This document shows, one piece after another, positions 11,460 through 29,525 of a stretch of 41,016 nucleotides of DNA (position 1 is the stretch's first letter; each line of letters begins with the position of its first letter). The translations under genes were made by a program, and so were the position numbers. The notes below the pieces were generated by a model. That model worked only from the letters and a program-made list of their open reading frames with translations, ran no database searches and was not told where the DNA came from. The stretch is from Myxococcales bacterium (GTDB lineage: Bacteria > Myxococcota_A > Polyangia > Polyangiales > Houyiibacteriaceae): positions 1 through 41,016 of the forward strand of contig JAHEEE010000034.1 in assembly GCA_024640845.1 (NCBI GenBank), given 5' to 3'.

Positions 11460-12332
11460 TTGATCGTCGAGCTTCTCAGCGTCGTAGCTCCGGTTTTCAT
11501 CGTCGCTCTCGTGGGTCTCGCTTGGGCGCGCTCGGGTGCACACTTCGATGAGATTTCCATCTCGCGATTGGTGCTGAACGTCGGAGTCCCGTGTCTGCTG
11601 TTCCGAAGCCTCACTACGCTCGACGTGTCGCCATTCGAGCTCGCGCAGATGGCGGGGCTGACCGTTGGCGTGATGGCCCTCTTTGCGCTCGGTGGCTTCG
11701 CCGCGCTCCGGGCGATGAAGTTGCCGGCACACACCTTTCTCGGCCCGTTGATCTTCAGCAACTCGGGCAATGTGGGCGTACCCATCTGCCTGTTTGCTTT
11801 CGGTGAACCGGGTCTGGCGCTCGCGATGACCTACTTCGCGGTGTCGGCGACGTTTCACGTCTCGCTAGGTGGCCCCCTCTTCGCCGGATCGTTCTCCTGG
11901 AAACCGTTTTTCCGGTCTCCGCTCACGTGGGCAGTCGCAGTGACGGTACCGGTCGTCGCCACTGGCGCCGCAGTGCCCACTTGGATCGCGCGCACGACCG
12001 AGCTGCTCGGAGACATCGCCATCCCCCTCATGCTTCTCACCCTGGGCGTCTCGCTTTCGAAGATGCATCCGGAATCCCTTGGGCGTTCGCTCGTGCTCGC
12101 CCTGGTTCGCTTTGCGCTCGGCGTGTCCGCCGGCTTCCTGCTCACGGCGCTGCTCGGCGTCGAAGGCCTGACGCGTAAGGTCCTCATCCTCCAAGCCTCG
12201 ATGCCCGTCGGCGTACTCAACTACCTCTTCGCGCACCGCTACGGAAGGACCCCCGAGCAAGTCGCCAGCTTGGTGCTCGTAAGCACACTGCTCTCGGTCC
12301 TCACGATCCCAACCCTCTTGGCATGGCTCTAG
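11460..12332 (+). CDS. AEC-family (auxin-efflux-carrier type) transporter
   Basis: A 290-residue inner-membrane permease with eight or more hydrophobic segments across its length. The N-terminal pattern (VVAPVFIVALVGLAWAR), the LNVGVPCLLF segment and the FSNSGNVGVPICLFAFGEPGL motif in the middle, with its discontinuous helix, are typical of the AEC/membrane transport family; the C-terminal half repeats the fold with IPLMLLTLGVSL and LQASMPVGVLNYLFA. Substrates are usually organic acids, amino acids or other small anions, and none can be assigned here. The likely start is TTG at 11460-11462; no ATG is available and no clear ribosome-binding site is seen. Its TAG stop lies inside the left terminus of a palindromic repeat element. 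Confidence 0.85.
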   Translation: MIVELLSVVAPVFIVALVGLAWARSGAHFDEISISRLVLNVGVPCLLFRSLTTLDVSPFELAQMAGLTVGVMALFALGGFAALRAMKLPAHTFLGPLIFSNSGNVGVPICLFAFGEPGLALAMTYFAVSATFHVSLGGPLFAGSFSWKPFFRSPLTWAVAVTVPVVATGAAVPTWIARTTELLGDIAIPLMLLTLGVSLSKMHPESLGRSLVLALVRFALGVSAGFLLTALLGVEGLTRKVLILQASMPVGVLNYLFAHRYGRTPEQVASLVLVSTLLSVLTIPTLLAWL

Positions 12333-12475
12333 GGGACACGCTCCGGGTGTCTAACCATTCGCAATTACATCACTCCCCAGCGAAAGATCGCAGGGTTCCC
12401 TCCGGTCTGACGCTGCGATCGTTGACGCAGTACCGATGTAATTTCAAGAGGTTGCAAGTACGGAGCGTGTCCCTA
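12330..12475. repeat. Palindromic repeat element, copy 1 (inverted-repeat termini, MITE/REP-like)
   Basis: About 145 bases. The outer arms are perfect: GGGACACGCTCCG (12333-12345) and its reverse complement (12461-12473). Two further pairs nest inside: AATTACATC (12363-12371) with GATGTAATT (12435-12443), and GATCGCAG (12386-12393) with CTGCGATC (12413-12420). The element could fold into one long interrupted hairpin. It shares its termini, the AATTA block and AAAGATCGCAG with a second copy at 27601-27800. The outermost TAG on each side is the stop codon of the neighbouring gene (AEC transporter on the left, PLD-like gene on the right). It carries no open reading frame; mobilisation in trans is inference. 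Confidence 0.8.
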
Positions 12476-13042
12476 CATTTCGTCTAGGGGCATTTCGCAT
12501 TCATCCCGGAGGCGGCAGTCTCGACACTCTGCGCCGCGCCAGATTCGATCATATCGCTCTTGAACCGCGTCGATCATCTGTTCGTCTGAAGTGATGATGC
12601 CCATCTCGAAGTTGCGGCGGCCCTCGCCCTTGGCGCCGAGGCCGGCGCCGGTCCAGTTGGCGCTGCCGAGGTAGACCAGGCAAGCGTCGACCACCACTGT
12701 CTTGAGGTGAACCCGGGGGCAAACACGCATCTCGAGGCCGCCAGCTACCAGGTCGGGTTGCCCGTCGAAGCTCTTCCGAAACGGTCGCGAGGGCATCGAG
12801 GCATGGAGGATCCTCAGCTCGACGCCCCGACGCGCGAGCTCCGTGAAGGCTTCCAGGACGGAGCGGTAGTTGCCGCGGCGAGTGCGGCGTCTGCCCGGAA
12901 CCGCGTTCGGATCCTCGACCATGAGCTCCTTTAGATTGGCCGTCGCGATCCAAACACTGCGCTCCGCCTCGAGCGCCGCCTTCACGACTTGCTCGTAGTG
13001 ATCGCGGTCTGAGAGGAGCTGGAGAGGCACGGCACGGCGCAT
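12473..13042 (-). CDS. Phospholipase D-like domain protein with C-terminal Cys cluster
   Basis: A 189-residue protein with one HKD motif: HLKTVVVDACLVYLGSANWTGAGLG near residues 110-135 holds the His, Lys and Asp and the GSAN(W) segment. The N-terminal half (VWIATANLKEL, then SVLEAFTELARRGVELRIL) is the usual first part of a PLD domain. A single HKD per chain implies a homodimer, as in the Nuc-type nucleases, so a nuclease or phosphodiesterase is more likely than a lipase. The last 20 residues contain CRDCRLRDEC, which could bind a metal. The TAG stop is supplied by the terminus of the palindromic element, leaving this gene and the convergent AEC gene separated only by that element. Confidence 0.75.
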   Translation of the reverse strand: MRRAVPLQLLSDRDHYEQVVKAALEAERSVWIATANLKELMVEDPNAVPGRRRTRRGNYRSVLEAFTELARRGVELRILHASMPSRPFRKSFDGQPDLVAGGLEMRVCPRVHLKTVVVDACLVYLGSANWTGAGLGAKGEGRRNFEMGIITSDEQMIDAVQERYDRIWRGAECRDCRLRDECEMPLDEM

Positions 13043-25004: not shown

Positions 25005-26345
25005 ATGTTGTCGACCACATCAACGGCAAGCGGCAAGTCTGCGGATTTGTTGGGGTCCCGCGAGATCAAGCACGTGGTGGTCCTCGGTGCCAACGGCGCG
25101 ATGGGCCTTGGAAGCGGGGCACTGTTCACGACTGCAGTGCCACGGGTCACCTTTTTGGCCCGGACCAAAGAGAAGGCAGACGGCGGGCTCGCCGCAGCCG
25201 TAAAGATGGTGCGCTCGAGCACTGTGGCAAACCGGGTCGACACGGGCAGCTACGACGCGGACTTCGATCGCGTCGTCGCTGAAGCCGATTTGATCTTCGA
25301 AGCGGTAACCGAGCAGCTAGACCTGAAGCAGCAGTTCTTCGACCGCATCGACGCGGTGCGCCGCCCCGACTCGATCGTGGCGACGGTCACGTCCGGCCTG
25401 TCGATCAACCAGCTCGCTGAAGGGCGAAGCGACTCGTTTCGCAAGAACTTCCTCGGACTTCATTTCTTCAACCCGCCTAACGTGATCGTGGGCACCGAGC
25501 TGATCGCCGGCAAGGACACCGACCCCAAGCTCGTCGATTTTCTCGACGCGTTCTGCACGGTCCGCCTTGGTCGCGCGATGGTGCGTACCGCCGATACCGC
25601 CGGCTTCGCCGGCAACCGAATTGGCTTCAAGGTGCTCAACGAGTGCGCCATCCTCGCAGAGGAGCACGGCCCGCTTCTGATCGACGAGCTGGTCGGTCCG
25701 TACACTGGCCGCGCGATGACTCCGCTTGCCACTATCGATCTCGTAGGCTGGGACATCCACCGTGCGATCGTCGACAACATCTATGAGCTCGCTCCCGACG
25801 AAGCGCACGAGACTCTGAAACTTCCGCAGTACATGGCGGAGTTGATGGAAAAGGGCGTCCTCGGTCGCAAGACCGGCGGCGGTTTCTTTGGCAAGGACGA
25901 CGGCGGCGGCCGCATCGTGCTCGACCCGAAGACGCAAAATTACGCTCCAAAATCCTCGATTGCGCGGCCGGACCTCGCCTTCATCGACACAATCTCGAAC
26001 CTCCATCGGGTCGGCCGCTACGAAGACGGTATGAAGGCATTTACAGAGGCCAGCGGGCCGTACGCAGCGATCGCCCAAAAGGTAATCGCCGGCTACATCA
26101 GCTACTCGTTCCATCGAGTTGGCGAAGTGACCGACGACATCTCGGGCATCGACCGCATCATGGGCTTCGGCTTCAACTGGGCGCCCCCGAGTGTCTTGGT
26201 CGACACGATCGGGCTCAAGCCTACCATCAAGATGATCGAGAAGGCCGGCCTTCCAGTGCCGCCAGCGCTCGCAAACGCCCAAGAGGGCACCAAGTTCTTC
26301 GACGACCCTCAGGTCAATGTGGGTAAGTTCTTCGTCGCTGCGTAA
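25005..26345 (+). CDS. 3-hydroxyacyl-CoA dehydrogenase (stand-alone)
   Basis: A 446-residue NAD-dependent dehydrogenase for 3-hydroxyacyl-CoA. The N-terminal Rossmann motif is VVVLGANGAMG (GxGxxG altered to GANGAMG) near residue 27. It is followed by IFEAVTEQLDLKQQFFDRID, VTSGLSI and the catalytic His in GLHFFNPPNVIVGTELI near residue 157, then the C-terminal domain with GFAGNRIGFKVLNE and LGRKTGGGFFGKD. Unlike FadJ, it lacks the crotonase domain; the C-terminal half is long enough for two 3HCDH domains. A GAAAGGACGAAGG ribosome-binding region precedes the ATG. It lies 13 bases upstream of the thiolase on the same strand. Confidence 0.9.
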   Translation: MLSTTSTASGKSADLLGSREIKHVVVLGANGAMGLGSGALFTTAVPRVTFLARTKEKADGGLAAAVKMVRSSTVANRVDTGSYDADFDRVVAEADLIFEAVTEQLDLKQQFFDRIDAVRRPDSIVATVTSGLSINQLAEGRSDSFRKNFLGLHFFNPPNVIVGTELIAGKDTDPKLVDFLDAFCTVRLGRAMVRTADTAGFAGNRIGFKVLNECAILAEEHGPLLIDELVGPYTGRAMTPLATIDLVGWDIHRAIVDNIYELAPDEAHETLKLPQYMAELMEKGVLGRKTGGGFFGKDDGGGRIVLDPKTQNYAPKSSIARPDLAFIDTISNLHRVGRYEDGMKAFTEASGPYAAIAQKVIAGYISYSFHRVGEVTDDISGIDRIMGFGFNWAPPSVLVDTIGLKPTIKMIEKAGLPVPPALANAQEGTKFFDDPQVNVGKFFVAA

Positions 26346-26358
26346 GCGAAAGGTATTG

Positions 26359-27603
26359 GTGAAAGAGATGACACAGGTTCCAGAAGTTTACGTTCTTGGC
26401 GGCTACCAGACGGACTTTGCCCGTAACTGGAGCAAAGAGAAGAAGCACTTCGTCGCGATGATGCGCGAAGCGGTCCTCGGGGCGCTCGATGAGACGAATA
26501 TCGAGCCGAAAGAGATCGAAGTCGCCCACACCGGCAACTTCGCCGCCGAGCTCTATAGCAAACAGGGTCACCTCGGTGCGTTCTTCCTCGAGATCGACCC
26601 CGCGTTCAGCGGCCTACCGACCTCGCGTCACGAAGCGGCGTGCGCGTCCGGCAGCCTCGCGATCCAAGCGGCGTCCGCCGAAATCGAAGCGCACCGGTAC
26701 GACCTCGCATGCGTCGTCGGCGTCGAGCAGATGAAGACAGTCGGCGCCGGCGAAGGCGGTGATTTCCTGGGAACGGCAGCATGGTACGAGCTCGAGGCCA
26801 AGGGCATCGAGTTCCCCTTCCCGAAGCTCTTCGGTAAGCTCGGGGACGAATACGACAAGCGCTACGGACTCAAGGACGAGCACCTCGCCGAGATCAGCAC
26901 GATTAACTACGCGAACGCCAAGCTCAATCCCAATGCGCAGACCCGCACGTGGTACATGAACTACGACCATGCGATGAGCCGTGACGAATTCAACGGCACG
27001 ATCGGTGGGCGGATTCACATTTCGGACTGCTCGCAGGTGACCGATGGCGCAGTGGCGGTGCTGCTCGCCTCACCGAAGTACGCCAAGAAGTGGGCGGACC
27101 GCAATGGCGTGTCGCTTGACGACATACCCCGCATCAAGGGCTGGGGCCACAACACGGCACGCATCCGCTTTGAGGACAAGGTCGCGGAGAGCGCCAACGA
27201 CGACTACGTACTTCCGCACGTACGGAGCACCGTTCAGAGCGCGATGAAGCGGGCCGGCATCCCCGACGTGAGCGGCATCGACGCCATCGAGACGCATGAC
27301 TGCTTCACCACGTCGGAATACATGGCGATTGACCACTTCGGCCTCACCGCCCCCGGCGAGAGCTGGAAGGCGATTGAGGAGGGCGACATCGCGCTCGGCG
27401 GCAAGACGCCGATCAACCCAAGCGGCGGCCTCATCGGCGCGGGTCACCCTGTGGGCGCTACCGGCGTCCGCCAGGTCCTCGACTGCCACAAGCAGGTGAC
27501 GGGCCAAGCCGGCGACTACCAGGTCGAAGGCGCCAAGAACGTCCAGACCCTCAATATCGGCGGCTCCGGCACAACCAGCGTCAGCTTCGTCATCGGCAAG
27601 TAG
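26359..27603 (+). CDS. SCP-x-type thiolase (acetyl-CoA acetyltransferase-like)
   Basis: A 414-residue thiolase-superfamily protein of the sterol-carrier-protein-x or archaeal type. The nucleophilic Cys is in AACASGSLAI near residue 93; His-Asp-Cys (ETHDCFT) and GHPVGATGVRQ near residue 370 complete the active site. It differs strongly from the FadA-type thiolase at 5789-7000, so the two probably handle different acyl chains. The GTG at 26359 has GAAAGG 5 bases upstream; ATG at 26368 is an in-frame alternative. Its TAG stop is the first three bases of the second palindromic repeat element. It forms an operon with the dehydrogenase before it. Confidence 0.9.
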   Translation: MKEMTQVPEVYVLGGYQTDFARNWSKEKKHFVAMMREAVLGALDETNIEPKEIEVAHTGNFAAELYSKQGHLGAFFLEIDPAFSGLPTSRHEAACASGSLAIQAASAEIEAHRYDLACVVGVEQMKTVGAGEGGDFLGTAAWYELEAKGIEFPFPKLFGKLGDEYDKRYGLKDEHLAEISTINYANAKLNPNAQTRTWYMNYDHAMSRDEFNGTIGGRIHISDCSQVTDGAVAVLLASPKYAKKWADRNGVSLDDIPRIKGWGHNTARIRFEDKVAESANDDYVLPHVRSTVQSAMKRAGIPDVSGIDAIETHDCFTTSEYMAIDHFGLTAPGESWKAIEEGDIALGGKTPINPSGGLIGAGHPVGATGVRQVLDCHKQVTGQAGDYQVEGAKNVQTLNIGGSGTTSVSFVIGK

Positions 27604-27800
27604 GGACACGCTCCGGGTCCTCAACCCCTCGGAATTAGAGCCTTTCTCAGCCAAAGATCGCAGCGACTTGCTCGGCGGGTTCTCCGGACCCGCGGAGTGG
27701 GTCGCTGCGAGGTAATTGGGGCGCTGGGATTGCCGTTGCGATCTTTGGCGGGGATTCCCAGTGATCTCGGATGCTTGAAGGGGTGGAACGTGTCCCCTAT
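27601..27800. repeat. Palindromic repeat element, copy 2
   Basis: About 200 bases filling the space between the thiolase stop and proS. The outer arms are GGGACACGCTCC (27603-27614) and GGAACGTGTCCC (27785-27796), 11 of 12 matching. The second arm pair, CCAAAGATCGCA (27651-27662) and TGCGATCTTTGG (27737-27748), is perfect. A third, TCGCAGCGAC (27658-27667) with GTCGCTGCGA (27701-27710), is also perfect and overlaps the second, so two alternative folds compete. The left end shares GGGACACGCTCCGGGT with copy 1. The terminal TAG is the thiolase stop codon. No open reading frame belongs to it. Confidence 0.8.
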
Positions 27801-27809
27801 ATGGGCGCC

Positions 27810-29525
27810 ATGCGTTATTCGCGGGCGTTTATTCCGACGGTCAAAGAGGTTCCGAAGGAGGCCACGATGCCTTCGCACGTGCTGATGCTGCGGGCGGGGT
27901 ACGCGCGGATGGTTGGGGCAGGGATCTATGAGCTGTTGCCGCTCGGAACGCGGGTGCTCCACAAGATCGAGCGAATCATCCGAGAGGAGATGGACGCCTC
28001 CGGGGCACAAGAGCTTCTGATGCCGACGTTCCTTCCAGGGGACTACTTCAAGGAGTCGGGGCGGTGGGATGTGTACGGCCCGACGCTCCTCCGCATCAAG
28101 GACCGCAAAGGGGGCGAGTATCACCTCGCGCCAACGCACGAAGAAATCATCACGGACCTCGCTCGGCGCGAGATCCGAAGCTACAAACAGCTCCCGCTGA
28201 ACCTCTACCAGATCCAGCTCAAGTACCGCGACGAGCCGCGCCCACGCGCGGGTCTGCTCCGCTGCCGCGAGTTCATCATGAAAGACGCGTACTCGTTCGA
28301 CGTTTCGGAAGAAGCCGCGGTCGCGAGCTACGATCGCATGCGGGACACCTATCACCGTATCTTCCGTCGTTTGGGTCTCGAATACCGAGTCGTGGAAGCC
28401 GACAGCGGGGCGATCGGCGGCAGCCAGAGCGCCGAATTCCAGGTACTGGCCCAGACCGGCGAAGACTGGATCGTCGCTTGTGACGCGTGCGACTACGCCG
28501 CGAATGTCGAGGTCGCGCACGCGGGCCGCGCCGCAGCGGAGCAAGGCGAAACGATCGACCCGGGCGAGCTCGAGAAGGTCGAAACCCCCGACACCCGGAG
28601 CATCGAAGAAGTCGTCGGGTTTTTCGGTGGGGAGACCACCAAGGCGGACACCCTCAAATCACTTCTCTACGTGGCCGGCGACGACATCGTGCTCGCGGTC
28701 GTCCGCGGCGACCACGAGCTCAACGAAATCAGCCTAGCCCGCTACCTCGATGTCGATGAGGTGTTGCTCGCTTCGGACGCAGCTGTGAGGGAAGCGACTG
28801 GTACCGAGATCGGGTTCGTTGGACCCGTGGGCTTCAAAGGCCGAATCATCGCCGACCCGGACGCAGTCGCCGTCCGCAACGCGATTGCGGGCGCGAGCGA
28901 GACGCCATTTCACTACAAGAACGTCAATTACGGTCGCGACTTCGAAGCCGAGGTCGCCTCCATCCGGCAGGCCGCCTCGGGCGACCCTTGCCCCAAATGT
29001 GGCGAAAGGCTCGAGCTCTACCGCGGCATCGAGGGCGGCCACATCTTCGTCCTCGGCACCCATTACTCGGATAAAATGAATGCCACCTTCCTCGATGAGG
29101 AGGGAAAGAGCCGTTCTCTCGTGATGGGCTGCTATGGCATTGGCGTGAGCCGTTTGATCGCAGCGGTCATCGAGCAACACCACGACGAGCAGGGGATTCG
29201 ATGGCCGGTCCCCGTCGCGCCCTACGAAGTGATCGTAACACCGATCGGCAAAGACGAGGCTCCGTTGGCCAAGGCCACCGAGATCTACGAGGCCCTGACG
29301 GCCGCAGGCATCGAGGTTCTGTTGGACGATCGACCCGAGCGGCCCGGGGTGAAGTTCAAAGATGCCGATCTACTGGGAATTCCGGTTCGCCTCACGGTCG
29401 GCGCGCGCGGGCTGAAGCAGGGGACAGTCGAGCTCAAGAAGCGAACGGACACCGAGTCTACCGAGGTCCCCATCGCAGACGCCACGGGCGCCGCCCGGGC
29501 GGCGCTCGACGAGCTTCGAGGCTGA
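27810..29525 (+). CDS. proS: Prolyl-tRNA synthetase (bacterial type)
   Basis: A 571-residue class II synthetase that charges tRNA-Pro. Motif 1 lies around LMLRAGYARMVGAGIYELLPLG, and motif 2 around YRDEPRPRAGLLRCREFIMKD in shortened form. The inserted editing domain (about residues 225-380) contains TLKSLLYVAGD and GPVGF, motif 3 is MGCYGIGVSRL, and the anticodon-binding domain ends the protein, so this is the editing-competent bacterial form. The ATG at 27810 gives the family N-terminus MRYSRAFIPTVKE; ATGs at 27801 and 27771 are in frame but lie next to or inside the repeat element. No ribosome-binding site is visible before 27810; the only purine-rich stretch (GAAGGGGTGG) is inside the element. 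Confidence 0.95.
   Translation: MRYSRAFIPTVKEVPKEATMPSHVLMLRAGYARMVGAGIYELLPLGTRVLHKIERIIREEMDASGAQELLMPTFLPGDYFKESGRWDVYGPTLLRIKDRKGGEYHLAPTHEEIITDLARREIRSYKQLPLNLYQIQLKYRDEPRPRAGLLRCREFIMKDAYSFDVSEEAAVASYDRMRDTYHRIFRRLGLEYRVVEADSGAIGGSQSAEFQVLAQTGEDWIVACDACDYAANVEVAHAGRAAAEQGETIDPGELEKVETPDTRSIEEVVGFFGGETTKADTLKSLLYVAGDDIVLAVVRGDHELNEISLARYLDVDEVLLASDAAVREATGTEIGFVGPVGFKGRIIADPDAVAVRNAIAGASETPFHYKNVNYGRDFEAEVASIRQAASGDPCPKCGERLELYRGIEGGHIFVLGTHYSDKMNATFLDEEGKSRSLVMGCYGIGVSRLIAAVIEQHHDEQGIRWPVPVAPYEVIVTPIGKDEAPLAKATEIYEALTAAGIEVLLDDRPERPGVKFKDADLLGIPVRLTVGARGLKQGTVELKKRTDTESTEVPIADATGAARAALDELRG

Follow-up and report, generated by a model that had tools for sequence, protein, structure and literature searches.

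Two kinds of RAYT-associated repeat come closest to the elements described here. Di Nocera et al. 2013 (PMC3733652) reported RAYT genes with long terminal inverted repeats (TIRs) that share the motif GGGGWSAS (TIRtrons), together with small dispersed TIR families. A second kind, the GTAG REPs, is located no more than 20 bp from the 3' ends of genes and itself supplies TAG stops (PMC3733652).

The window (the whole 41,016-nt stretch of myxococcal DNA analysed here) contains two miniature elements, neither with an assigned strand. Copy 1 (12330..12475, 146 bp) lies between the convergent genes of an AEC (auxin efflux carrier) family transporter (11460..12332, + strand) and a PLD-like protein (12473..13042, - strand). 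It is bounded by 65-nt terminal inverted repeats on the left (12333..12397, +) and right (12409..12473, -), both delimited by alignment A2 and model R1. Its outer arms are perfect over 13 bp (GGGACACGCTCCG, 12333-12345, and CGGAGCGTGTCCC, 12461-12473). Folded as single-stranded DNA, this copy reaches -37.1 kcal/mol vs. a mean of -19.1 for shuffled sequences (z -6.4), and none of the 200 shuffles equals it. The TAG at its left junction (12330..12332, +) is the stop codon of the transporter gene and the TAG at its right junction (12473..12475, -) that of the PLD-like gene, and element-free relatives end both genes at the same codon position. Copy 2 (27601..27799, 199 bp) is found between the gene of a thiolase (acetyl-CoA acetyltransferase family; 26317..27603, +) and proS (27771..29525, +, for the ORF as listed, the conserved part of which starts past the element, at about 27804-27813). 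Its left junction TAG (27601..27603, +) is the thiolase stop, for which element-free orthologues have TGA at the same codon, and its other end (27799) also reads TAGGGGACACG and terminates no gene. The sequence thus confirms the preliminary description in placing three of the four ends of the window copies at in-frame TAG stops.

In the region 27785-27815, copy 2 terminates on its right side approximately 5 bp upstream of a proS ATG. The element thus contributes to the region where proS translation starts, and the start of the longest proS ORF (27771) falls within the element. The PLD-like protein (12473-13042) has weak similarity, well below cut-offs, to DISARM DrmC and nuclease NucT models. 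An Rfam search of the window returned no match. Other GGGACACG matches in the window (400, 16013, 21471, and 24288) are missed by the TIR model and were treated as chance occurrences.

The family in the host genome and its relatives

The genome-wide count proposed in the preliminary description came to approximately 17 elements in the 4.14-Mb host genome (DNA, pattern, and profile searches), consisting of 13 two-ended short copies, a transposase element, and three or four one-ended copies; of the 13 two-ended ones, 11 abut a stop codon at one or both ends. An alignment of 29 ends defines the 65-nt repeat, GGGACACGCTCC...AACC...GAAATCA...AAAGATCGCAGCG, with 17 invariant columns. The RAYT/IS200-type transposase suspected to lie elsewhere in the genome is present on contig C81, which carries the single Y1_Tnp gene found genome-wide. 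The gene is part of an 824-bp element (C81:14029-14852) bounded by 65-nt inverted repeats matching those of the short copies and located between mglA-like and leuS-like genes, flush with the stops of both (apart from AEC, PLD-like, thiolase, and proS, the names given to genes are our own reading of the sequences). The encoded protein matches Y1_Tnp above the cut-off and scores 55.4 bits (E 5.9e-15) against the RAYT family NF047646, for which the curated equivalog cut-off is 80 bits; it is thus related to this family but is not assigned to that equivalog. As predicted from sequence, it contains the RAYT-type motifs NHVHLL (HUH) and YIDLNPVRAG (catalytic tyrosine), both aligning to the matching region of TnpArep 4er8 in a weak match (E 0.23), and has a tail beyond the core. 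Because the short copies share their ends with the sole Y1_Tnp locus, they are probably internally deleted relatives of the C81 element, and the window elements are best read as non-autonomous relatives of a resident TIRtron. At G000:C49:13189, the first ~20 nt of an element end (TAGGGGACAGGATCC) start at the stop codon (TAG) of an rplQ-like gene, where the similarity ends after this short stretch.

The repeat was found in all 18 genus relatives searched, with 28-44 matches in eight of them and 1-18 in the others, and it is nearly absent from the 15 same-family and 24 same-order genomes searched with a repeat model trained on the host genome, which diverged subfamilies may escape. Copies are more numerous in genomes with a Y1_Tnp gene above the cut-off (P 0.005). 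The transposase element occupies the same mglA-like/leuS-like site in seven or more genomes, a pattern that fits a single-copy RAYT under vertical inheritance, and orthologous copies of the repeat are found in up to seven genomes. Ends of the GGGGACAG type also occur in more distant RAYT relatives from Deltaproteobacteria, Thermodesulfovibrionales, and Treponema.

Several further repeats were observed in the relatives. Related families of TIRs that differ in their inner sequence (GGGGACACGCTCGCCCTCCAAAAC and the like) are present at L236, L245, and L264 (G014) and at L228 and L261 (G012). They abut the stop codons of the same genes (mglA, leuS, E2, SDR), which suggests that the same sites are used repeatedly. 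Genome G012 also contains a second RAYT lineage (L335) with GGGGACAGTCCCC ends, one of which lies 7 nt from a TGA stop. Three successive repeat ends follow a Lon-like gene in G017 (L165, 1537-2190), as if a copy had been duplicated or joined to another. Short GC-rich tandem repeats (CACTGG/GGCACT units) are found after stops in several relatives (L217, L218, L262, L308, and L314) and sometimes occupy sites where other species have the element.

Contact with stop codons

We pooled 80 loci from nine relatives with those of the host genome, yielding 98 elements (82 two-ended) that represent 35 independent loci in ten genomes; the loci are best-scoring matches, so well-preserved copies are over-represented. 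The ~20-nt C49 end match and a one-ended copy on C89, both unmatched by the model, were left out of the 98 elements. With genes called by a simple home-made caller, 24 of the 35 loci (69%) have at least one end no more than 7 nt from the in-frame stop of a coding ORF. In total, 70 ends lie this close to a stop; 39 sit at exactly -3 and approximately a fifth at -5 to -7. A deletion-only account, in which erosion brought copies flush with stops, was rejected, as it predicts a broad spread of distances and not a peak at -3. Null expectations were derived from 441 kb of the host genome with 368 called genes, in which 2.9% of intergenic insertion points are equally close to a stop. The observed 24 of 35 loci also exceed three stricter nulls, namely the intergenic T-A sites inside stop codons (14.4%; P = 5e-13), the random points within 4 nt of a stop in gaps of up to 100 bp (18.2%; P = 9e-11), and the T-A sites inside stops in convergent gaps (26.7%; P = 3e-7). 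The earlier judgement that the coincidence with stops is unlikely by chance therefore holds across all three.

The host genome is compact, with a median convergent gap of 15 bp, 31 of 65 convergent pairs no more than 10 bp apart, and 10 convergent pairs overlapping in CTAG. Such short gaps would favour an explanation by survival alone, in which insertion is random, only intergenic copies persist, and ends come to lie near stops by default. Even so, the gaps of up to 100 bp yield far fewer contacts than observed, flush contact is also seen at tandem loci such as thiolase-proS, and survival alone does not predict an enrichment of TAG at ends that terminate no gene (see below), making this explanation very unlikely.

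The comparison of filled with empty sites drew first on relatives poor in the repeat and then on others. For almost every gene in this comparison, approximately 13 in number, element-free orthologues stop at the same codon (TAG, TAA, or TGA). These genes encode the AEC transporter, the PLD-like protein, the thiolase, a RecN-like protein, an ABC-F protein, an acyl-CoA dehydrogenase, an SDR, PriA-like, TyrRS-like, MglA-like, and LeuRS-like proteins, a Lon-like protease, and an E2 component. The protein ends are conserved in the absence of the element (AEC ...LLAWL*, PLD ...EMPLD[EQ][MIL]*, thiolase ...SF[VI][IL]G[KT]*), and genome G001 provides a clean empty AEC/PLD site with TGA at both stops and a 13-bp spacer. 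Thus, the window elements did not create those reading-frame ends, contrary to the claim in the preliminary description that element ends create the flanking stops, for which it had itself named identical stops in element-free relatives as the refuting observation. An in-frame stop at the edge of an element need not be made by the element.

The element is nevertheless not neutral to the identity of the flush stop codon. Flush stops are TAG in 53, TAA in 12, and TGA in 5 cases, vs. 185 TGA, 139 TAG, and 44 TAA genome-wide (P 7e-13). Where the site is empty, the corresponding genes have TGA in 22 of 64 cases (P 9e-5, from a hand count with partly non-independent rows). Furthermore, TAG is present at 25 of the 110 ends not called as stops (probably including a few stops that the caller missed), vs. 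0.65% per position in intergenic DNA. Some genes have also been altered by the element. At the filled L147 site (G004), the two genes end in ...RLRR* and ...FKLD*, both at an element TAG, while the overlapping convergent genes of G005 and G012, which lack the element here, extend to ...RITRRA* (or a similar end) and ...FKLDA*, as read by eye from the alignment. In G013, a folD-like gene likewise ends in ...DAAEA*, compared to ...DAAEARIL* elsewhere, so that the L147 and folD genes are shortened by one to three residues at an element TAG. Elsewhere, genes run into the element and stop at +19, +27, or +32, with their last few residues replaced. Taken together, these cases indicate that insertion inside a gene 3' end occurs and is survivable.

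The shortened and run-in genes and the TAG excess at non-stop ends are what would be expected if an element with TAG at both termini inserted freely near gene 3' ends and its own TAG served as the stop whenever the frame fits. Free insertion would, however, rarely leave the same protein end with and without the element, as found in approximately 13 genes, and three-frame stops within the ends, a candidate adaptation that we rejected, are no commoner than in shuffled sequences. We therefore regard it as unlikely as a general explanation. The related proposal that a self-supplied TAG lets the element tolerate landing in gene 3' ends is accordingly upheld for L147, folD, and the TAG-bearing non-stop ends, but not for the AEC, PLD, and thiolase genes.

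Junction sequence and a model of insertion

At the junctions, the consensus reads T-A and then several Gs, TAGGGGACA...TGTCCCCTA, and the junction TAG consists of T-A and the first G of this run, which varies in length from 3 to 6. An A precedes the G-run in 87% of the stop-side ends and in 62% of the others, which corresponds to CCCC|T on the complementary strand. Cleavage by TnpAREP proteins occurs at C^T beside their hairpin, with GTAG as a likely guide (PMC8266576). Among 26 two-ended loci, candidate target-site duplications did not exceed in length those of re-paired flanks (1.64 vs. 1.56), the lone 5-bp duplication being GTCGA at L147. HUH enzymes, unlike DDE enzymes, are not generally expected to generate target-site duplications.

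We consider it likely that the short copies are miniature non-autonomous TIRtron derivatives for which a T-A/TAG junction rule, combined with purging, leaves copies flush with stops. A TIR-flanked RAYT element of the C81 type would have given rise to short copies retaining both ends, which could pair as one long hairpin on single-stranded DNA and would presumably be mobilised in trans by the C81 transposase. A T-A junction matches stops of the TAG and TAA type, and this rule is the likely cause of the contact: as the element begins with G, an insertion at TAG or TAA would leave a TAG stop and be harmless. Insertions in genes or promoters would be purged. The copies seen lie flush with native stops, chiefly at the 3' ends of genes in convergent or tandem arrangement. 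Several observations speak against this as a full account, namely that T-A sites in stops reach only 14% (27% in convergent gaps) vs. 69% of the loci, that approximately 17 flush ends carry TAA or TGA, that some lie at -5 to -7, that the L147 and folD genes were shortened by the element, and that the C81 protein scores below the NF047646 equivalog cut-off. The first of these means that the junction rule does not explain everything; together with purging, it covers much, but not all, of the stop-codon excess.

The residual excess may reflect true targeting or selection for a function at the 3' end. In the former case, the RAYT of this genus would target stop codons as such, inserting at the T of the stop with the TAG of the element replacing the native one. 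We regard this as unlikely; if true, insertion would be harmless by design and not through later selection. In the latter case, elements would be retained as terminators or mRNA stabilisers, with selection for the stop-adjacent copies. The strong hairpin, the location at gene 3' ends, the orthologous copies in up to seven genomes, and the distinct though related TIR families that G012 and G014 carry at these stops are all compatible with such a role. Nevertheless, the element is absent at these loci in many relatives, and compensatory change in the predicted pairs is nearly nil (2 of 27), and we thus view retention for a 3'-end function as decidedly improbable. With its single transposase locus, its approximately 15 short copies per genome across several species, and its many orthologous sites that are filled in some genomes and empty in others, this TIR-type RAYT family offers a good natural test of RAYT target choice. 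The same sites also allow testing why REP-like elements cluster at gene 3' ends.

Comparison with described systems

The family resembles GTAG REPs and REPINs with their RAYT (TnpAREP) in consisting of hairpin-forming non-autonomous repeats tied to a RAYT, in clustering at gene 3' ends (within 20 bp), and in having termini that often supply TAG stops. It differs from them in lacking a fixed GTAG, as the base before TAG varies and most ends have no TAG, in its 65-nt ends that pair with each other vs. self-complementary units of 20-40 nt, and in its copy number of approximately 17 vs. hundreds. As in bacterial MITEs, the copies are short, contain no genes, and have ends in common with a transposase-coding element of the same genome, but they lack a consistent target-site duplication, as expected if the enzyme is of the HUH and not the DDE type.

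The greatest likeness is to TIRtrons or TIRYTs, a name (TIRYT) that appeared in one paper only in the later literature searched. Both have a RAYT-like Y1 transposase gene flanked by long TIRs, as seen in the C81 element, and the TIRs are unrelated to GTAG REPs and dispersed through the genome as inverted pairs. The GGGGWSAS motif is matched by GGGGACAC or GGGGACAG in most element ends, and the C81 protein has the HUH motif and the catalytic tyrosine. TIRtrons probably correspond to subclass 2.1 of PMC6006769, which is marked by a C-terminal DNA-binding extension. The present family is distinguished by its 65-nt ends and its restriction to one genus. In addition, stop contact is measured here against empty sites, whereas PMC3733652 reports it only for GTAG REPs. 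The present family is thus a further member of the TIRtron/TIRYT kind, for which the contact with stop codons has been measured and empty sites have been compared.
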